A DNA stretch of 43,370 bases from Rhodobacter sp. GTDB lineage: Bacteria > Pseudomonadota > Alphaproteobacteria > Rhodobacterales > Rhodobacteraceae. The number at the start of each line of letters is the position of its first letter. Positions within the stretch are counted from its first letter, which is position 1. This document shows positions 975 to 40,868 of the stretch, piece by piece. The notes under the pieces were generated by a model. That model made no database searches and was not told the origin of the DNA. It saw only the letters and a list, made by a program, of their open reading frames with translations. The translations under genes and the position numbers were made by a program. The DNA lies in the NCBI GenBank assembly GCA_020250175.1, contig JADCEN010000040.1, positions 1 to 43,370 of the forward strand. The letters run 5' to 3'.

Positions 975-2141
975 CTAGTTGCCCACCACCCGCAACCGCA
1001 GCTTCAGCATCTCGCCGACAGCGTTCACCCCGGCTCGCAGGGGTGCATCGATCAAGTGGGCATAACGCTGGGTCGTGCCGATCTGGGTGTGGCCGAGGAG
1101 GCGACCGATCATTTCCAGCGAAGCGCCGCCGGAGACGAGCAACGAGGCGAAGGTGTGGCGTAGGTCGTGGATGCGGACGTCGGGGATCTGGGCCACCTTC
1201 TGCATCTTGGGCCAGAAGCGCTTGGGGTCACCGACCGGCTGGTCGGGCACGTCGCCCGGGAAAAGGAACGGGCAGTCCTTGGGGACGATTTCACGGCGCA
1301 AGCGGATCAACGCGACCGCCTCGTGCGAAATCGGCACGCGGTGGATGCGGCGCTGCTTGGTATAGGCGGCCTGCTTGGTCCAGATGGCGAGGTCGAGGTT
1401 GAACTGGTCGAAGGTGGCAGTGCGGACCTCGCCCAGCCGGGCGCCGGTCAGCATGCAAAGGCGGATGATGCTGGCGGCGCGCTGATCTTCGTCGACGGCC
1501 AGGGCGTTGGCCAGGCGTTCGATCTCCTCGAAGGACAGAAACCGGTCACGGGCGACCTCGGGCCGACGGCGGAAACCGAAGGCCGGATTGTCGGGGCGCA
1601 TCTTCCACAGCATGGCCAGATTGAACATCTTGCGCAGCATTTCACCCGCGCGGTTGGCCCGCACCGGCGTGGGCTTGGGCGGGGCCAGTTTCTTTCGCCG
1701 CTTCTGGGTCGGTTTTTTCTTCGACGGCCGCGCTCGCCCGACCGCTATCTTGGTCAGCAGGCGATCAACGTCAGTGGGCGTGATGTCGGCCACCTTGCGG
1801 TTCTTCCACTCCGGCAGGACCAGCTTTTCCAGCATGCTCTTTTGATCCGAGGCGTTGGTCGGGGCCAGCTTCGGCAGGTGTTCTTCGATGAAACGCTCGG
1901 CCAGTTCCTTGACCGTGGGCGCGCCGCGGGCAGCCTTGCGGGTGTCGAGCGGGTCCTCGCCGCGGTCGATCTCGCGGATCAGGCGCTTGGCCTCATCCCG
2001 GGCGGCGGTGACCGACCATGTCGGCCACACGCCGATGGTGAAGCGCTTCTGCTGGCCTGCGATCCGGTAGATCAGCACAAAGCCCTTGCGCCCGGTGGTG
2101 TAGACGCAGAGCCCGAAACCGGGGGTATCTTCGTCAAACAA
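975..2141 (-). CDS. Tyrosine recombinase / phage-type integrase 1 (start codon apparently lost)
   Basis: An island-type integrase that would cut and rejoin DNA at attachment sites. The N-terminus is the arm-binding DUF4102 domain (FDEDTPGFGLCVYTTGRKGF), followed by a core-binding domain and the catalytic domain with Arg (TGARLGEVR), HxxR (HDLRHTF) and the nucleophile Tyr (GTTQRYAHL). The first usable start in the intact frame is TTG at 2141, but domain-like sequence continues upstream to about 2201 (KAKLSERVVKAAEIGSRKY). There the expected ATG reads AAG. Restoring one base near 2199 would give ATG preceded by AAGGAG at good spacing, so the gene probably carries a one-base deletion, or the base is a sequencing error. 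It is about half identical by eye to integrase 2 at 37183-38448. Confidence 0.85.
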   Translation of the reverse strand: MFDEDTPGFGLCVYTTGRKGFVLIYRIAGQQKRFTIGVWPTWSVTAARDEAKRLIREIDRGEDPLDTRKAARGAPTVKELAERFIEEHLPKLAPTNASDQKSMLEKLVLPEWKNRKVADITPTDVDRLLTKIAVGRARPSKKKPTQKRRKKLAPPKPTPVRANRAGEMLRKMFNLAMLWKMRPDNPAFGFRRRPEVARDRFLSFEEIERLANALAVDEDQRAASIIRLCMLTGARLGEVRTATFDQFNLDLAIWTKQAAYTKQRRIHRVPISHEAVALIRLRREIVPKDCPFLFPGDVPDQPVGDPKRFWPKMQKVAQIPDVRIHDLRHTFASLLVSGGASLEMIGRLLGHTQIGTTQRYAHLIDAPLRAGVNAVGEMLKLRLRVVGN

Positions 2142-3597: not shown

Positions 3598-3804
3598 ATG
3601 GGGGCGCCAATGGCCAAACTCACCCCCGAGGGCCGGTTTCCGGTCGCTGCCCTGATCGCAGAAGCCCAGCGCGAACTTGACCTGCGGCGCCAGTTCTACT
3701 GGGCCAAGGTTCGGGCCGGAAAGATGCGCCAGGACGACGCGCATCTGCGGATCGCACTGATGGAGGCGATCGTGAAGCGCCTCACGGTGACGGCCGCGCT
3801 ATGA
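3598..3804 (+). CDS. Small phage/island hypothetical protein
   Basis: 68 residues from ATG 3598, with a second possible start at 3610 (MAKLTPEGRFPVAALI). The protein is helical and charged (AEAQRELDLRRQFYWAKVRAGKM), and its last four bases overlap the start of the O-like gene at 3801 (ATGA), so the two are probably translationally coupled. It has the size and place of the small gene between excisionase and replication genes in alphaproteobacterial islands. No function is recognised. Confidence 0.6.
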   Translation: MGAPMAKLTPEGRFPVAALIAEAQRELDLRRQFYWAKVRAGKMRQDDAHLRIALMEAIVKRLTVTAAL

Positions 3805-4784
3805 GCCATCGAGCCACCAACTGGGCGATCCAGCAGCGCGGGTTGGCGCCTGCGACCAAGCTCGTCCTCTGGCATCTCTGCGACCGGCACAACCCGGATT
3901 ACGGGTGTTTTCCGTCGCAAGACCAGTTGGCGGCCGATGCCGAAATCTCCCGCGCCAGCCTGAACGTGCAACTCGACAAGCTGGAACAGGCCGGGCTGAT
4001 CCGCCGGGAGCGGCGCCATTCTGAGGGCGCCCACCGGCGGCAATCGACCCGGTACTTCCTGGCCTTCGAACCGGAGTTTTCAGCGCAGGCGGAGCTGCCG
4101 CTCGACCCCAAAACCGGCCCCGACCCATGTCCAGAATCCAGACATGGAAACAGGCAAAAGCCATGTCCAGATTTCGCGAAAAGCCATGTCCAGATTCTGG
4201 ACACTAACCTTGTAAGTAAAGAACCAGCAATTACTACCGCGCGTGACGCGGGCGCGACGCGCGAGGGCCGGGCCGAGGTTTCCGCAGACGACCACGGCCC
4301 CGATCTGGACGCGGCAGAGGCCGCCTGCCTTGCCGCTTGCGGCGACGGCATGGCACCGGCAGCGCAGGCGGCGATCACCGCCACGACGGCCACGGTCGGC
4401 GCTTGGCTGAAGGCTTGCTACGACCTCAAACTGGACGTCCTGCCAGTGATTGCCGAACGGACGGCCAAGCCCAGGGGCAGCCCGATCCGGACTTGGGATT
4501 ACTTCAGCCAAGCGATCGCGGCACGCCATGTCCGTCGGATCGCCCAGGCGGCAAGGTTGCAAGGTGCTGGGGAAGCTGGCGCTGCCCCTGCCGTTGCGAC
4601 CGGCGGCCCTGCCGTGGTGCCCAGTACCCAGGGCGGCATTCCCGAACACCTGCTCCGCCTCGCCGCTTGGATCAACTCCGACAGCTACGTGCCGCCCAGC
4701 GCCTTCACCAACACCACCCGTGACGCCCTGCTGCGGGCGGGCCTTGTCACCGAGGCCACCCTGCGCGCTCGCCAAATCTACTAG
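3801..4784 (+). CDS. Lambda-O-like replication initiator with helix-turn-helix domain (copy A)
   Basis: 327 residues. The N-terminal 90 residues form a winged helix-turn-helix of the type found in phage replication proteins: PATKLVLWHLCDRHNPDYGC, then SRASLNVQLDKLEQAGLIRR. The middle (about 105-150) is a low-complexity linker whose DNA holds repeated CCATGTCCAGA words, a likely intragenic origin. The C-terminal 45 residues (LLRLAAWINSDSYVPPSAF, then TRDALLRAGLVT) are shared with copies B (5691) and C (39918) and may contact the replicative helicase or its loader; that role is inferred from the lambda O layout. It overlaps the upstream gene by 4 bp and precedes a DUF6362 gene. Annotation pipelines may simply call it a helix-turn-helix domain protein. 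Confidence 0.7.
   Translation: MSHRATNWAIQQRGLAPATKLVLWHLCDRHNPDYGCFPSQDQLAADAEISRASLNVQLDKLEQAGLIRRERRHSEGAHRRQSTRYFLAFEPEFSAQAELPLDPKTGPDPCPESRHGNRQKPCPDFAKSHVQILDTNLVSKEPAITTARDAGATREGRAEVSADDHGPDLDAAEAACLAACGDGMAPAAQAAITATTATVGAWLKACYDLKLDVLPVIAERTAKPRGSPIRTWDYFSQAIAARHVRRIAQAARLQGAGEAGAAPAVATGGPAVVPSTQGGIPEHLLRLAAWINSDSYVPPSAFTNTTRDALLRAGLVTEATLRARQIY
4125..4206 (+). repeat. Iteron-like repeats inside O-like gene A (putative origin)
   Basis: CCATGTCCAGA occurs at 4125-4135, 4161-4171 and 4184-4194 in direct orientation. An inverted copy (TCCAGACATGG) is at 4137-4147, and the last repeat runs into the palindrome GTCCAGA-T-TCTGGAC. The last two copies are 23 bp apart, close to two helical turns. 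An AT-rich segment with the word TAACCTTGTAAG follows (4204-4230). The arrangement resembles the lambda origin within gene O. Confidence 0.6.
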
Positions 4785-4801
4785 ACCGAAGGAGCCCCCC
4801 A

Positions 4802-5323
4802 TTGCGTCTGACGCCCCGTGAGATCGAGGATCGCCTCGAGGAAGCCGCCTACACCCTGAGGAACCTGCCCGAGAAGGATCGCCCTCGTGGCTATGGCAAT
4901 TCCTGGCCGCCTGTCGTCCACGACGCCCGCCACGCCTACGGTTACACGCCGGAACGGCCGATGCGGGTGATCCCCAGCGCGGCGGCCATCAGCCGGATGG
5001 AGGAATGCTTCGACTGGCTGCTCCTCCTCGATCCCGAGGATGCCCGGATCGTCTGGCTGCGGGCCGAGGGTGCCCGCTGGCGGCAGGTCTGTATTCGCGC
5101 CGGGGTGGTGCGATCGACGGCCTGGCGGCGCTGGGTGGCCGCCCTTCTGACCATCTCGAAGAAGCTGGAAAAGCTCGACAAATCAAAGGGCAAAGGCAAG
5201 GGCGCAAAACCCCTCACCGCAACCGCCCGCACACCCCCGCGCGAAAGCGGGGCCAAAGCGCAGGCCAACCCGCCCGATCCGTCGAACTTCGGGCGCGACA
5301 CTTTCCCGGGTTTTGACGCATAA
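4802..5323 (+). CDS. DUF6362-like phage protein
   Basis: 173 residues from TTG 4802, with AAGGAG ten bases upstream; no better start is near. The N-terminal part (LTPREIEDRLEEAAYTLRNL) and the segment around RPRGYGNSWPPVVHDARHAYG are typical of a small conserved family of alphaproteobacterial prophages. The central part (DPEDARIVWLRAEGARWRQV, then STAWRRWVAAL) reads as a helix-turn-helix resembling a phage sigma-factor or packaging regulator. The tail is Lys/Gly/Pro-rich and probably disordered. It follows the O-like gene by 17 bp and likely shares its transcript. Confidence 0.65.
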   Translation: MRLTPREIEDRLEEAAYTLRNLPEKDRPRGYGNSWPPVVHDARHAYGYTPERPMRVIPSAAAISRMEECFDWLLLLDPEDARIVWLRAEGARWRQVCIRAGVVRSTAWRRWVAALLTISKKLEKLDKSKGKGKGAKPLTATARTPPRESGAKAQANPPDPSNFGRDTFPGFDA

Positions 5324-5404
5324 AGAGGGCAAGATGGCGAAGGGTGCAGGCGACGGATCGCTTCACTCGACGCCCTCACCCCTGCTCCCGCCGCCGCTCC
5401 CGGC

Positions 5405-5454
5405 AGGCCCCCCGCCTTAGGTTCTCCCGGAAGGGAGACGTATGCGGGGGGCCT
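5405..5454. other. Nested perfect hairpin with GNRA tetraloop (candidate structured RNA or DNA site)
   Basis: The outer stem is AGGCCCCCCGC (5405-5415) paired with GCGGGGGGCCT (5444-5454), 11 bp without mismatch. Inside it is a 6-bp stem, TCTCCC (5423-5428) with GGGAGA (5433-5438), closed by GGAA, a GNRA tetraloop if transcribed rightward. The internal loop between the stems is 7 + 5 bases. No T-run follows, so it is not a standard terminator. It lies in the gap between the DUF6362 gene and the next O-like gene (5324-5690), which shows no protein gene. The same gap also has a GGGTGCGCG word repeated at about 5513-5536. Confidence 0.55.
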
Positions 5455-5644
5455 AGGCGCGTCTAACCGCTAGTGACAGAACAAAAATCTGGGTCCGCGC
5501 CTTGGGTGCGCGCTTTGGGTGCGCGGGTGCGCACCTGAGGCCGCCAGCGCGTACCCGCAGCCTCTTCCCCCTGCCGTTCCCCCCGCCCCTTCCCGGGCAT
5601 TGCGCCGCCCACCATGCCGCCTCTGCCCCCCGTCCCCCTCATCC

Positions 5645-5673
5645 GGCCCGGTGTTCATCACCGGGCCTTTTTT
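5645..5673 (+). terminator. Rho-independent terminator just before O-like gene B
   Basis: GGCCCGGTG (5645-5653) and CACCGGGCC (5659-5667) form a 9-bp stem with the loop TTCAT, followed by six T residues. It ends only 17 bases before the ATG at 5691 and just before its GGAG. A transcript coming from the left would stop here, so gene B would need read-through, antitermination or a promoter overlapping the hairpin. It may equally be the end terminator of an older element to which module B was joined. Confidence 0.8.
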
Positions 5674-5690
5674 CGTTTCTGGAGATCCGT

Positions 5691-6656
5691 ATGAGCCACG
5701 CCGCCACCAACTGGGCCATTGCCCAGCGCGGGCTGAAGCCTGCCACCAAGATCGTGCTATGGCTGCTTTGCGACCGCCACAACCCCGACTACGGCTGCTT
5801 TCCCACCCAGGCGCGGCTGGCCGAGGACGCGGAGATGTCCATCTCGGCCCTGAACGACCATCTGGCAACGCTGGAGCGCTGCGGCCTGATCCGCCGCATC
5901 CGCACCCACGATCCGCACACGCATCGGCGCATGCCCACACGCTACATCCTCGGGTTCGAGAAAGGATTTCCGCAGGACCCAACGCCGGAAAGCGGAGATG
6001 GCTTCCCTGAGAACACAGGCGAAAATGACGCCCCATCTCCGGAAATCACTGATGGGGCCATCTCCGAATTTGAGGGCGATCCATCTCCGGATTTTGCCGA
6101 AAGCCATCTCCGAAATCCGGAGAATAACCTTGTAAGGGAACCTTTAATTCAACCAGTAAAGGAGGAGGAGGGCGCGCAGGCGCGCGAGACCGAATTCGAT
6201 CGGTTGTTCGAGGAGCTGCTGAAAGCGCTGGGCATCAATCCCGACGGCGATCTGCCAGTTTGGTGGCAAGGCTGGCCAGCCCGGGCCCATGTCCAACGCT
6301 GGATCGACGACCTCGGCCTGACGGAAGATGAGATCATTGCAACAGCGAGGGCAACCCGGCAGGACCACCCTGCCCCGCCCGACGGACCCAAGGCGCTTGA
6401 CCGGGCAATGGAGCGGGCAGCGAAGCGGAACTCGCAAACTGCGGCGGCCTCTTCGAAACCTCCGAGCGGCAAGCGCCAGGCCAAGCCGACTGAAGGCCCC
6501 CGGCCCAGCACCGACGAACTCGCGGCCTTCTACGCCAACATGGTGAACTCGGACGGCTTCCTCCCCGCCAACACCATCAGTAACACCATCCGAGATGCGA
6601 TGCTGGCACGCGGTCTCGTCACGCCGGAACGCCTGCGGGCAAGGGGAGTGAGGTAG
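5691..6656 (+). CDS. Lambda-O-like replication initiator with helix-turn-helix domain (copy B)
   Basis: 321 residues from ATG 5691 (GGAG upstream). The N-terminal winged helix-turn-helix is close to copies A and C (PATKIVLWLLCDRHNPDYGC; SISALNDHLATLERCGLIRR). A variable linker encoded by repeated CCATCTCCGGA words follows, then a conserved central block (LPVWWQGWPARAHVQRWIDD) also found in copy C, and the shared C-terminus (FYANMVNSDGFLPANTISNT, then RDAMLARGLVT). The role, initiation of element replication, is inferred from this layout. It is nearer to copy C of the right island than to copy A beside it, so the left region is probably a composite of two elements. A terminator lies directly upstream. 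Confidence 0.7.
   Translation: MSHAATNWAIAQRGLKPATKIVLWLLCDRHNPDYGCFPTQARLAEDAEMSISALNDHLATLERCGLIRRIRTHDPHTHRRMPTRYILGFEKGFPQDPTPESGDGFPENTGENDAPSPEITDGAISEFEGDPSPDFAESHLRNPENNLVREPLIQPVKEEEGAQARETEFDRLFEELLKALGINPDGDLPVWWQGWPARAHVQRWIDDLGLTEDEIIATARATRQDHPAPPDGPKALDRAMERAAKRNSQTAAASSKPPSGKRQAKPTEGPRPSTDELAAFYANMVNSDGFLPANTISNTIRDAMLARGLVTPERLRARGVR
5993..6123 (+). repeat. Iteron-like repeats inside O-like gene B (putative origin)
   Basis: CCATCTCCGGA or CCATCTCCGAA is found at 6033, 6058, 6081 and 6104, spaced 25, 23 and 23 bp. An inverted CGGAGATGG lies at 5993-6001, and the last copy runs into CCGGAGA (TCTCCG-AAAT-CCGGAGA). An AT-richer stretch with TAACCTTGTAAG follows (6123-6165). Spacing and layout equal those in gene C at 40263-40353. 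Confidence 0.65.
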
Positions 6657-6755: not shown

Positions 6756-7034
6756 TCAGCCGGGATCGATCCGGGCCGGGCCATAGCCGTGAACCCGGTT
6801 CCAGCGATCGATCTCGCGCAGAGCGGCGGCGAATTCCTCGTCGGTGTCGCAGATAGTGCGGGTGACATCGCCCTCGGCGAAGTTGAGGATGGTGCGTTCG
6901 GAGGGTGAGGCCCAAGTGCCGAACCATGACGCATCCTGCGCGGTGTCGACCTGCGCCCATCCCCGGGCGCAGGAGCAAAGGTCGAAGTCGAAGCGATAGC
7001 GGTCGCCGGGTTCGAAGCTTCGGATGATCTTCAC
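6756..7034 (-). CDS. Hypothetical island protein, 92 residues
   Basis: The start is GTG at 7034, overlapping the stop of the upstream gene (GTGA), which supports the reading. The protein has a Cys pair in DFDLCSCARGWAQVDT and the block ASPSERTILNFAEGDVT; no signal peptide or membrane segment. It is the last of three leftward genes (7848 to 6756), converging on O-like gene B. Proteins of this size and style are frequent in Rhodobacteraceae prophages and plasmids, but I cannot assign a function. Confidence 0.6.
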   Translation of the reverse strand: MKIIRSFEPGDRYRFDFDLCSCARGWAQVDTAQDASWFGTWASPSERTILNFAEGDVTRTICDTDEEFAAALREIDRWNRVHGYGPARIDPG

Positions 7035-7615
7035 GCCCGGCCCTCCCGGGCCGCGATCGCCATCACAGCGAGGTCGCGATAGCGGGCCAGCGCTTTGGGG
7101 CTGGATGAGACCGGGTTGATCGAAATGGCACGCAGGCCGGTTACGTCGGCCTTCCCGGCCAGTTCCACTAGCGCGGCAAGCTTCGTGCGGAAGCGGGCGT
7201 GGGTCGGGGCAGAGAAGTCTGGCGGCGGAGGCAATTCGCCCTGCCGGGCCTTGGCTTCAATGTCGGCATCCCGGCGGCGACGCGGGGCGCTGGGCGCGGC
7301 GGCGGGTTCGGCCTCGGCAATCGGCGACGGTTCATCGGCCGGTTCCGGTGCGGCTTGCGGCGCCGTCGTTGCTGCCGGGGCATCCGGCTCGCAGGCGTCG
7401 AGTTCGGCCGCCAGCCGCCCGGCGGCGGTCTCCAAGCCCGGGGCGGTCAGGATAGCCTTGATGGCCTTCGGCGCGCGATCGGTGCCGATCTTGGCGGCCA
7501 GCAGCCGTTCAAACCGTTCGGCCGCGGCGGCCACGCTGGCGCTGCGCCCCAAAGGCGCCTCGCTCAGACGCTGGGCGAGGCGGTTGATCTGGACGGCGGA
7601 GAAGTTGGTGAACAT
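7031..7615 (-). CDS. Hypothetical island protein with Ala/Pro-rich linker, 194 residues
   Basis: ATG 7615 is preceded by AGGAGG at ideal spacing. A helical N-terminal domain (MFTNFSAVQINRLAQRL, continuing to about residue 75) is joined by a Pro/Ala/Glu-rich linker (about 78-125) to a C-terminal helical domain (HARFRTKLAALVELAGKADV, and ARYRDLAVMAIAAREGRA). There is no enzyme motif. It overlaps the downstream gene by 4 bp and follows the 73-residue gene by 11 bp, so the three form one leftward operon. Function unknown. Confidence 0.65.
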   Translation of the reverse strand: MFTNFSAVQINRLAQRLSEAPLGRSASVAAAAERFERLLAAKIGTDRAPKAIKAILTAPGLETAAGRLAAELDACEPDAPAATTAPQAAPEPADEPSPIAEAEPAAAPSAPRRRRDADIEAKARQGELPPPPDFSAPTHARFRTKLAALVELAGKADVTGLRAISINPVSSSPKALARYRDLAVMAIAAREGRA

Positions 7616-37182: not shown

Positions 37183-38448
37183 TCACGCGGTCTTTCGGCC
37201 ACCTTGATCGTCGGCATCGTGAACCAATTGGGGCCTTGGCCGGAAGGCGCTGGCCACAGCATCGACGCCCGCACGGAGCGGCGAGTCCATCAAGTGGGCA
37301 TAGCGCAGCGTCGTTTGCATCTGGCTGTGGCCCAGCAGCTTGCCAATCATTTCCAGCGAGGCACCGCCGCTGACCAGCAGCGATGCAAAGGTGTGGCGCA
37401 GGTCGTGGATGTGGACTTCCTGCAGCCTACACTCCTTCTGGATCTGTGCCCAGAACCGCCGCACCTCCTGCACGGGCTGGCCGGGCGTGTCGCCTGGGAA
37501 CAGCCACGGCGTGCCACGCGGTACCGACAGCTGGCGCTGGCGCACGATGCTGGCGGTCTCATCCGAGATCGGCACGCGATGGACTCGGCGCTGTTTGGTC
37601 ATGGCGGGCGGCTTTGACCAGCTCATGTGTTCAAGGTTGAACTGTTCGAACCGGGCCTGCCGCACCTCGCCCAGACGGGAGCCGGTCAGCATGCACATGC
37701 GGATGATGTCGGCCGCGCGCCGGTCCTCGGCAGCATCAAGGGCTGCGGCGAGACTGTTGATTTCATCCTTTGACAGGAACCGCTCCCGCGCTGTTTCAAT
37801 CCGGCGATGGAAGCGTTGGGCGGGGTTGTTCTCGCACCACCCCCATTCGACCGCCAAGGTGAACATCTTGCGCAGTACCTCCCCGATGCGATTGGCGCGC
37901 ACCGGCGTGGGCTTAGCGGGCTGCAGCTTTTTGGCCCGGTTGTTGGGTTTTTCCTTGTGCGGCCGGGGCCGACCCTCGGCCACCTTGTTCAACAGCTTGT
38001 CGACGTCGGTCGAGGTGATTTCCGTTACCAGCTTCCGGCCCCAGACCGGGGCGACCATCTTGGCCAGCGCGGACTTCTGGTCAGACGCATTGCGCTCGGC
38101 CAGTTTCGGCAAGTGCTGGGCGCAGTAGCGTTCGATCAGATCGTCCACACGCGGCGCTTCGCGCAACGCCCCGCGCTGGGCCAGAGGGTCAGCACCAGCG
38201 TCGATCTCGCGCCGGATTTCCTTGGCGCGCTCGCGTGCCGCCGACACCGACCATTCTGGCCAGCGCCCGAAGGTCATCCGCCGCTGCCGCCCGGCATGGC
38301 GGTAGTCCAGCGTGAAAGCCCGGCCGCCCCCGCGGTAGATGCAGGCGGCGAACCCGCGCACCTCCGTGTCGAAGAGCTGATAGTCGCGCCCCACGATGGG
38401 CACGGCTTCACGGAGCACTTTTTCAGTCAGCTTGATGCGTTCGGGCAT
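37183..38448 (-). CDS. Tyrosine recombinase / phage-type integrase 2
   Basis: 421 residues from ATG 38448 (AAGGA upstream); the open frame to 38610 runs into the repeat region and is not used. Arm-binding DUF4102 domain (YQLFDTEVRGFAACIYRGGG), core-binding domain (HLPKLAERNASDQKSAL), and a catalytic domain with Arg (TGSRLGEVR), HxxR (HDLRHTF) and Tyr (TTLRYAHL). It is related to integrase 1 but far from identical, so the two islands are separate acquisitions of one family. It would excise or integrate the element to its right; the att site used cannot be fixed from this window. Confidence 0.9.
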   Translation of the reverse strand: MPERIKLTEKVLREAVPIVGRDYQLFDTEVRGFAACIYRGGGRAFTLDYRHAGRQRRMTFGRWPEWSVSAARERAKEIRREIDAGADPLAQRGALREAPRVDDLIERYCAQHLPKLAERNASDQKSALAKMVAPVWGRKLVTEITSTDVDKLLNKVAEGRPRPHKEKPNNRAKKLQPAKPTPVRANRIGEVLRKMFTLAVEWGWCENNPAQRFHRRIETARERFLSKDEINSLAAALDAAEDRRAADIIRMCMLTGSRLGEVRQARFEQFNLEHMSWSKPPAMTKQRRVHRVPISDETASIVRQRQLSVPRGTPWLFPGDTPGQPVQEVRRFWAQIQKECRLQEVHIHDLRHTFASLLVSGGASLEMIGKLLGHSQMQTTLRYAHLMDSPLRAGVDAVASAFRPRPQLVHDADDQGGRKTA

Positions 38449-38509
38449 GCGTTGGATCCTTCTTGCATCCGACATGAGGCGTGGTTCCGCCGCACTATCA
38501 AGGCAAGCA

Positions 38510-38965
38510 TGGCAGCTCGGGTGGCGGGAAGGCGCAGGGTGGCGGAAAGGTCGCCCTCCTTGCGCCACCCCTTGTTTCACTGAGAGTTTAACTCTGGCCG
38601 GGCCGAGCATCGCCGCGTCTGATCATGGCTGTCAGCCTCTCCCGCGCTCAACCGGGCGTCCGCCAGGCTGGAATCGCCGATGCAAGGCATGCTGCGCCTG
38701 TAAATCTCCAAGCAAATCAAGGGGTGGCAGGGGTGCCGCGCCGGATGCCACCCCCTCTTTGCCTGCCAATGCCGGTCAATCCCCTGTAAATCCGGGTGTT
38801 CGCAGGTGTTTGCAGCTTTGGCGTCCATTTGCCCCATGGGCCAGGACAGCTTGCCCGACCCCGCGCTACGTCGTCCGACGCGAAAAACCCAATGAAACAA
38901 GGGGTGGCGCGAGGTTGCGTTCCTTTGCGCCACCCGGCGCCTTCCCGCCACCCCTTCGGCCCTGC
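38510..38965. repeat. GGTGGC/GCCACC repeat region between integrase and excisionase
   Basis: The space from 38449 to 39032 has no gene. GGTGGC or GCCACC words appear at about 38519, 38538, 38565, 38724, 38752, 38904, 38929 and 38949 in both orientations. Two longer copies on opposite strands share GCGCCACCCCTTGTTTCA (about 38561-38580) and its complement (about 38893-38910); a third pair, GGGGTGGCA/TGCCACCCCC, is at about 38722-38758. They may be arm sites for integrase and excisionase or repressor operators controlling the two divergent genes. Confidence 0.6.
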
Positions 38966-39532: not shown

Positions 39533-39921
39533 TCCGCCGTAATACCCCCGAAGCCGATTTGCAGCGCGCTGTCGTCCAGGCGCTGCGCGTTGCCCTGCCC
39601 CGCACGGCCATCATCCACCATTGCGCCAACGAGGTGACAGAACCCGGGCCGCGCGGTGCAAAGCGTCAGGCCATTCTGGTCGGTATGGGCGTGCATGCCG
39701 GTTTTGCCGATCTGATGGTGATGAACGATGGGCGCGTCCTGTTTCTGGAATTGAAGGCACCCAAGGGCCGCTTGCGCCCTGACCAAGAGGCTTTCCGGGA
39801 TGCCGTTCTTGCGCAAGGCTTCGGCTGGGCGCTGGTTCGCAGCCTCGACGACGCGCTGGGCGCTTTGGCCGATCATGGTTTCACCAGCCGTGTCCGCCCG
39901 GTGCGGAGGGCAGCACCATGA
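39529..39921 (+). CDS. VRR-NUC domain nuclease
   Basis: 130 residues. The VRR-NUC (PD-(D/E)xK-like) core is readable: TPEADLQRAVVQALR, a helix; GVHAGFADLMVMNDGRVLFL, then ELKAPKGRLRPDQEAF, with the catalytic D, E and K. Stand-alone VRR-NUC proteins in phages probably act on DNA ends or junctions during replication or recombination. It overlaps both neighbours by 4 bp and sits directly before the O-like replication gene. Confidence 0.88.
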   Translation: MIRRNTPEADLQRAVVQALRVALPRTAIIHHCANEVTEPGPRGAKRQAILVGMGVHAGFADLMVMNDGRVLFLELKAPKGRLRPDQEAFRDAVLAQGFGWALVRSLDDALGALADHGFTSRVRPVRRAAP

Positions 39922-40868
39922 GCCACAAGGCAACCGTCTGGGCCATCCAGCAGCGCGGGTTGAAACCTGCCACCAAGATCGTGCTCTGGTTCCTCTGCGA
40001 CCGACACAATCCGGATTTCGGGTGTTTTCCGACACAGGCGCGGCTGGCCGACGATGCGGAAATGTCGATCTCGGCGCTGAACGAACACCTCGCCCGGCTC
40101 GAGGAGTTGCGCCTGATCCACCGGGTTCGCGTCCATGATCCCCGCACCCACAAGCGTCAGGCCACCCGCTACATCCTGGGGTTCGAGGATGGATTTCCAC
40201 AAGAGCCAACTCCGGAAACAGGAGACGGGTTTGATGAAACGGACGAGGAACAAGACGGCGGCCCAACTCCGGATTCCGGACATGGAGCCATCTCCGGATT
40301 TTCGGCAAAGCCATCTCCGGATTTTGCCGAAAGCCATCTCCGGAATCCGGAGACTAACCTTGTAAGAGAACCCCTAAGTAAACCTGTAAAGGAGGAGGAG
40401 GGTGCGCAAGCGCGCGAGGCGATCTCGAATGAATTTTTCGGGGAACTGCTCGCAGCGCTGGGCCTCGATGCCACCGCCCTGCCCGGCTGGTGGCAAGGCT
40501 GGCCACCCCGGCTGCACGTCCAGCGATGGCGCGATAAGCTGGGGCTGACCGAGGCGGAAATCGTCGCCGCCGCCGAGGCGTCCCGCCAGGAACACCCCGA
40601 ACCGCCCGATGGGCCAAAGGCGCTGGACCGCTCCATGCAGCGCGCCGCCCAGCGCAAGCTCGAGGATGCTGGCCGAAAACGCCGAAAGCCGAAGGCGGTA
40701 CCAGCACCGGCGGCAAAGCCGATCACTGACCTGCCCGCATTCTACGCTAAGATCGTCAACGCGGACGGATACCTGCCGGTCAGCGCGATCAGCAACACCA
40801 TGCGCGATGCCATGCTAGGCCGGGGGCTGGTTACCGCCGAACGCCTGCGCGAGCGGGGGATCCGGTGA
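39918..40868 (+). CDS. Lambda-O-like replication initiator with helix-turn-helix domain (copy C)
   Basis: 316 residues from ATG 39918 (overlapping the nuclease stop). Winged helix-turn-helix at the N-terminus (PATKIVLWFLCDRHNPDFGC; SISALNEHLARLEELRLIHR), an iteron-encoded linker (about 100-155), the block LPGWWQGWPPRLHVQRWRDK shared with copy B, a Lys/Arg-rich stretch and the shared C-terminus (FYAKIVNADGYLPVSAISNT, then RDAMLGRGLVT). Replication initiation is inferred from the same design in all three copies. Its stop overlaps the methyltransferase start. Confidence 0.72.
   Translation: MSHKATVWAIQQRGLKPATKIVLWFLCDRHNPDFGCFPTQARLADDAEMSISALNEHLARLEELRLIHRVRVHDPRTHKRQATRYILGFEDGFPQEPTPETGDGFDETDEEQDGGPTPDSGHGAISGFSAKPSPDFAESHLRNPETNLVREPLSKPVKEEEGAQAREAISNEFFGELLAALGLDATALPGWWQGWPPRLHVQRWRDKLGLTEAEIVAAAEASRQEHPEPPDGPKALDRSMQRAAQRKLEDAGRKRRKPKAVPAPAAKPITDLPAFYAKIVNADGYLPVSAISNTMRDAMLGRGLVTAERLRERGIR
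40206..40355 (+). repeat. Iteron-like repeats inside O-like gene C (putative origin)
   Basis: CCAACTCCGGA at 40206 and 40263, CCATCTCCGGA at 40288, 40311 and 40334; the last four are spaced 25, 23 and 23 bp, as in gene B. The last copy forms the palindrome TCTCCGG-AAT-CCGGAGA (40337-40353), followed by TAACCTTGTAAG and an AT-richer stretch to about 40390. Confidence 0.65.

Follow-up and report, generated by a model that had tools for sequence, protein, structure and literature searches.

The replication origin of bacteriophage lambda, in which iterons and an AT-rich tract lie within the gene of the initiator O, is the model system for origins of this type in the sections of the literature that we consulted (PMC7466680, PMC5043065). 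Origins inside O-type genes are already known. The consulted part of the phage L report describes repeats of its own within gene 18 of this Salmonella phage, and the gene 18 products of phages L and P22 as distantly related initiators, the coding region of each holding a repeat word of its own; the comparison made there spans three phages and comes without a residue-base rule (PMC8022706). A co-variation between DNA-binding domain and origin, with specificity assigned by origin swaps, is described in the relevant section on the Vibrio cholerae phage-inducible chromosomal island-like element (PLE), where the origin is intergenic, the initiator belongs to the RepA_N family and the co-variation is at module level (PMC8263062). 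Here, we analyzed a 43,370-nucleotide stretch of Rhodobacter sp. DNA (JADCEN010000040.1; one whole contig, C35 of genome G000 in our set, hereafter the window), in which three genes, named A, B and C, are most probably prophage initiator genes that each hold their own origin on the lambda plan, with a residue-base code and a conserved element for unwinding or loading, as judged from sequence comparison. We know of no O-type family in which the change of the origin word has been followed per residue across about 200 natural pairs, subscription papers being mostly outside the literature searched; as far as that literature goes, neither the code at residue level and its tests nor the conserved array has been described before.

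A first-pass annotation of the window had reported three open reading frames with a common N-terminal helix-turn-helix (HTH) domain. These were found, all on the forward strand, at 3801-4784 (A, 327 residues), 5691-6656 (B, 321 residues) and 39918-40868 (C, 316 residues), and their last ~45 residues are also similar. The PHROG profile "replication initiation O-like" (PHROG_345) matches A, B and C (E 1.4e-26, 4.8e-24 and 1.1e-23, respectively), and it matches lambda O over residues 16-169 (E 5e-17). Pfam places an HTH_36 domain in all three (E 5.6e-14 for A), which outscores by far the MarR family PF01047, for which A is above the curated cut-off (27.7 vs 24.6), B below it (16.0) and C unlisted. 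The C-terminal ends of B and C match phrog_35955, a family of unknown function that is not among the listed matches of lambda O.

An exact-word search on both strands of the whole window found CCATGTCCAGA confined to A (4125, 4161 and 4184) and CCATCTCCGGA confined to B (6033 and 6081) and C (40288, 40311 and 40334), confirming phased repeats in the linker-coding DNA with one word in A and another in B and C. The three iterons of A, on the forward strand, are at 4125-4135, with an inverted near-copy at 4137-4147, at 4161-4171 and at 4184-4194, the last being also the left half of a perfect terminal dyad of 17 bp, TGTCCAGA-t-TCTGGACA (4187-4203). B has four forward iterons in three reading frames (6033, 6058, 6081 and 6104; 6033-6114), two of which deviate by one base, and an imperfect terminal dyad (6107-6123). 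C also has four on the forward strand (40263-40344): the first, CCAACTCCGGA at 40263, is one base off, and those at 40288, 40311 and 40334 follow; an inverted near-copy lies at 40275-40285, an extra CCAACTCCGGA at 40206, and the perfect 17-bp dyad TCTCCGGA-a-TCCGGAGA at 40337-40353. The spacing of 23-25 bp proposed for all three sets holds for B and C (25, 23 and 23 bp in each) and fails for A (36, then 23 bp), and the palindrome said to close each set is indeed a 17-bp dyad about one central base, imperfect in the case of B.

As had also been proposed, each dyad is followed by the common word TAACCTTGTAAG, which occurs in the window at 4205, 6125 and 40355 and nowhere else, and then by an AT-richer stretch (58-64% AT in the 36 nt from AACC vs 20-40% in the following 60 nt). 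In A, this stretch (4206-4241, forward strand; 58% AT, then 20%) includes an AACC..GTAA unit. In B, it is an array of AACC units at 6126, 6139 and 6151, 13 and 12 bp apart (6126-6162, forward; 64% AT), and in C, the units are at 40356, 40369 and 40381 (40356-40392, forward; 61% AT), the middle one, AACCCCTAA, being degenerate. Iterons mid-gene with an AT-rich tract on their 3' side match the annotated lambda ori, the N-terminal part of the initiator belonging likewise to PHROG_345, with differing words and a differing terminal dyad. The lambda O/ori plan assigned at first pass was thus recovered, with origin function suggested by analogy.

Relatives were collected from viral contigs, genome contigs and whole genomes (223 distinct genes first, 311 later), and the named genomes with the closest protein matches are mostly Rhodobacterales. 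The 223 genes, window copies included, were compared with synonymous-codon shuffles by counting copies of a 10-mer with at most one mismatch. At least three copies were present in 217/223 genes vs 66/223 shuffles, at least four in 181 vs 6, and at least five in 123 vs 1. Gene by gene, none of 300 shuffles reached the 4 copies of B or the 5 of C, and 61 reached the 3 copies of A; with exact 11-mers and 2000 shuffles each, the triples of A and C were reached by none and the pair of B by 409, so that this pair alone is not special. In the 226 genes for which anchor, dyad and upstream iteron copy are all present, the iterons fall in three reading frames in 192, in two in 32 and in one in 2, so that selection acts at the DNA level. 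The dyad centre lies 11 nt ahead of AACC in 214 of these 226 genes (odd-centred), the AACC anchors are 330-558 nt into the gene in 58 representatives, and the AT content, taken in 20-nt bins starting at the anchor, is 59% and 56% in bins one and two vs 28-51% in the others. The first-pass annotation would have been refuted by repeats that are absent from homologues or explained by codon constraints alone; neither is what we observed, the shuffle excess and the use of three frames together making codon constraint a poor explanation.

To relate protein and site, the left half-site was numbered 1-11 (for example, C1 C2 G3 T4 G5 T6 C7 C8 G9 G10 A11), with the register set by dyad symmetry, which is independent of the letters under test; registration by regular expression or by a CC start gave register errors and was replaced. 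Of the 226 genes scored, the three exceptions to the pairing of Arg51 with G5 (L307, L233 and L433) were interpreted as register slips and subsequently excluded, leaving 223. Arg51 occurs with G5 in 136/139 genes before this step and in 136/136 after it, and other residues at position 51 occur with C5 in 86/87. Gln80 is found with G3 (125/125) and Arg80 with A3 (82/83), Lys80 being mixed (5 A, 2 G; n = 223), and Arg56 goes with T8C9 in 14/17 genes, or 14/14 once the slips are dropped, with C8 present in 207/209 genes that have another residue there. When all columns of the N-domain were screened (223 genes, ~55 effective), base 5 was tracked best by column 51 (0.78 vs 0.41 for the runner-up), base 3 by column 80 (0.56 vs 0.24) and base 9 by column 56 (0.50 vs 0.38), and the best two-way split per column gave an accuracy of 1.00 for base 5 with column 51 only (next 0.91) and of 0.986 for base 3 with column 80. 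High screen scores at bases 2 and 11 appear to reflect clade membership (at base 2, 2 effective sequences vary), and we make no claim for these bases. By this code, A (R51, R80, V56; CCATGTCCAGA) and B and C (I51, R80 and D56 or E56, respectively; CCATCTCCGGA) differ where predicted.

A tree of the whole protein minus helix 3 and linker (222 rows) has 14 changes of residue 51 and 14 of base 5, and the supported independent pairs agree in 7/7 cases (p 0.016). For residue 80 and base 3, 8 independent pairs changed in the same direction, 0 in the opposite one and 3 showed no difference in 191/200 pairings (median p 0.008), and for residue 56 and TC the supported pairs agree in 5/5 (p 0.0625). With the rule fixed beforehand, further searches gave 75 loci, including 51 hits on genes found earlier and 21 distinct genes that were new. 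One of the 21 lacks an anchor, and the other 20 were scored as a held-out set: 20/20 genes fit both 51/5 and 80/3, Arg56 goes with TC in 3/3 and other residues with C8 in 17/17, the new genes being relatives of the training set, with 2 of the 21 N-domains identical to earlier ones. The cultured phages RcOceanus (Rhodobacter; V51) and V1 (Labrenzia; R51, R56), both in the rule-deriving set, have the same plan and fit the code. Origin-word specificity appears to follow a few residues in the core clade, possibly through direct base contact.

A closer comparison is offered by five genes whose N-domains share 79-92 of their 92 residues. L003, from contig C47 of the same genome as the window (which has one further copy on contig C10), and L324 encode LSRSALNEHLLRLE and have the terminal left half CCGTGTCCGGA (the LSRS form); L199, L202 and L390 encode LSLSALNEHLLRLE and have CCGACTCCGGA (the LSLS form). 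Between the two forms, the N-domains are alike in 79-81/92 residues, helix 3 differs solely at residue 51 and there are 10-12 other N-domain differences, and the terminal left half is CCGTGTCC with R51 vs CCGACTCC with L51. The right arm of the dyad, GTGTCCGGA, is identical in all five genes and the outer iterons of L003 are mixed, which we read as a change of site that may have been caught half way. In L199, L202 and L390, the left arm of the dyad is GACTCCGGA and the right arm still GTGTCCGGA.

The array behind the dyad was counted with the pattern AACC-N-[GT]TAA, 1-3 free bases being permitted. There are 1.98 units per gene vs 0.12 in synonymous shuffles (304 genes), spaced by 13 bp (123), 12 bp (107) or 25 bp (74), and 38 of the 304 genes have none. 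Within the 45 nt that follow the first unit, 261/276 Val codons are GTA vs 210/3238 elsewhere (268 anchored genes). An origin of the array in a repeated EPVK/EPVR peptide was rejected, both because of this GTA excess and because marine relatives whose iteron words differ wholly keep the DNA units while encoding other peptides. The pattern AACCN{1,2}GTAANNGAACC, which misses the variants in A and in the C47 copy, has 3 matches in the genome that holds the window, all in O-like genes (the C10 copy, B and C), and its reversed control has 0; a host oriC motif is, in that spacing, an unlikely source of the array. Similar arrays (AACCAGTCA, AACCGGGAA, AACAGTAGG and the like) were seen by eye at the same position in O-like genes of phages Vibrio D65, Serratia Parlo, Salmonella SI8, Burkholderia Bcep176, Pam5 (a cyanobacterial phage) and Rhizobium PPF1, six records hand-picked from 45 with hits; inspection of the AT tract of lambda by eye found no AACC-N-GTAA array. 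By position, the units can be likened to the 13-mers of E. coli oriC and RK2, short repeats in the AT-rich opening region beside the initiator sites, as presented in the part consulted of PMC5043065, the units here being coding DNA of the form AACC-N1-2-GTAA. In the same inspection by eye, AACC-N-GT(A/C)A-like arrays were noted at the equivalent place in L592-L595, L513 and L515, whose O-like genes come from gamma-, beta-, alpha- and cyanophages. As a side observation, the marine genes L406, L408, L411, L417, L420 and L431 have the repeat-then-AACC..GTAA plan with AT-rich words (e.g., TCTGCA, GTGAAAAATTTACA) outside the core code.

An AlphaFold2 model of C (mean predicted local distance difference test score 76.5, predicted template modeling score 0.35) has a helix at 40-47, a recognition helix at 51-63 and strands at 67-70 and 84-87, so that residue 51 would open the recognition helix and residue 80 would lie in the wing between the two strands. 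Confidence is low over 101-153 and 155-165, the iteron-coded linker, which is accordingly predicted to be disordered. Fold matches are general winged helices, with the DnaD N-domain as the top Foldseek hit, a weak one (E 0.04). Bacillus subtilis DnaD reads a strand-specific single-stranded DNA element at oriC, according to the section consulted (PMC10201434), and is a host protein acting there, unlike the phage proteins A, B and C.

The repeats, dyads, arrays, DNA-level constraint and core-clade co-variation described above are directly visible in these genes. By analogy with lambda, the winged-helix domain at the N-terminus would bind, probably in dimeric form, the dyad-like iterons, mostly 23-25 bp apart, in its own linker-coding DNA; the assembled nucleoprotein would open the adjoining AT-richer tract and recruit the helicase, and the AACC-N1-2-GTAA units, 12-13 bp apart, may serve unwinding or loading. 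As the first residue of the recognition helix, residue 51 would read base 5 of the half-site (Arg with G, otherwise C), wing residue 80 would set base 3 (Gln with G, Arg with A), and residue 56 would read bases 8-9 (Arg with TC, other residues mostly with CG or CA); since one gene holds both, protein and DNA would change together. We consider it a possibility somewhat short of even that a near-deterministic code of three contacts (80/3, 51/5 and 56/8-9) allows the word of an origin to be deduced from its protein throughout a phage clade, with the slowly changing array as a common unwinding or loading module. Given the fast change of the word and the slow change of the array, such origins would combine a fast-changing lock with a slow-changing opener.

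Several observations weigh against these proposals. Of 78 genes of sufficient length that had been left out of the code set (31 without an anchor and 47 anchored, mostly distant), the 47 anchored ones were used to extend the code, and the extension failed: 31/47 do not fit residue 51/base 5, and in fixed register Arg51 goes with G5 in 6/18, other residues with C5 in 10/29, Gln80 with G3 in 8/30 and Arg80 with A3 in 3/10, several of the 47 being visibly mis-registered. Six marine genes with Glu51 have G at base 5. These misfits restrict the code to the core clade, where the earlier suggestion that protein and site changed together stands for residues 51 and 80 and, less firmly, 56; it does not stand for most of the distant genes. 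The upstream iterons follow base 5 more loosely (G in 512/566 copies of Arg51 genes, C in 297/349 of the others), L398 has TC at bases 8-9 with Glu56, columns 56 and 69 tie in the screen for base 8 (0.41 each), column 73 comes near column 80 in the split for base 3 (0.955), and Asp or Glu56 vs G9 is not significant on the tree. A BLASTP comparison of C with lambda O gave nothing significant, and among the scanned neighbour genes there is no lambda P-like helicase loader. Finally, HTH and iterons are linked in one gene, where old pairs would stay together anyway, and a tree of the N-domain only (188 rows) has 8 pairs over all branches and 2 on supported ones, which both agree and are too few for a test.

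The last two points, together with columns 49, 82 and 76, which partly follow base 5, would fit an association due to shared ancestry, HTH and linker traveling together and no residue contacting the co-varying base. We regard this as improbable, since the pairs on the whole-protein tree agree for 51/5 and 56/TC and for 80/3 are 8 of 11 in the same direction with none opposite, the columns that rank first for bases 5, 3 and 9 belong to the recognition helix and the wing, and the LSRS and LSLS forms differ at the site as predicted. Slightly less improbable, though still unlikely, is that the repeats are operators for autoregulation and the HTH gene encodes a regulator rather than an initiator, a view favored by the HTH_36/MarR-like domain and by phage records that, among the listed rows, often say HTH protein or transcriptional regulator; the PHROG profiles, however, give replication initiation, and the anchors lie deep inside the gene, followed by an AT-richer tract, as the iterons are in lambda ori, with a second phased array. 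That the repeats arise from a low-complexity linker constrained at the protein or codon level is very improbable: PCP/PSP peptides are repeated in the linker and A alone is matched by 61/300 shuffles, but the frame usage and the copy numbers across relatives exceed what shuffles give, and the linker is modeled at low confidence, as for disorder.

If the initiator reading is right, origins could be predicted for many prophage genes annotated merely as "helix-turn-helix protein", as could the co-resident prophages able to cross-activate each other; the family would also be a clean system for initiator-origin matching during change, and a conserved array without an assigned role may be an unwinding element. 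The idea that co-resident prophages avoid equal words was abandoned on inspection, the five copies of genome G949 all having CCATCTCCGGA and B and C sharing their word.

Regarding the surroundings, integrase genes are found close to A (975-2141, reverse strand) and close to C (37183-38610, reverse strand), and the vicinity of C includes a VRR-NUC-like gene, slightly below the Pfam cut-off, and a DNA methylase gene, which follows C. With these genes near A and C, both contig ends look prophage-like, with ordinary host genes, among them CobW and FecCD, in between. A is followed by a DUF6362 gene (4802-5323); the same family includes gp57 of Rhodobacter phage RcOceanus, four genes past its initiator. 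In RcOceanus, no clear P was found among 7 proteins scanned, an AAA ATPase is encoded four genes upstream of the initiator, and gp48 (L599:8975-10300), five genes ahead of it, has FtsK-gamma stretches and a GapR-like domain. In the window, two overlapping reverse-strand open reading frames (6756-7034 and 7031-7615) match consecutive parts of phrog_24512, suggesting that this gene is split.

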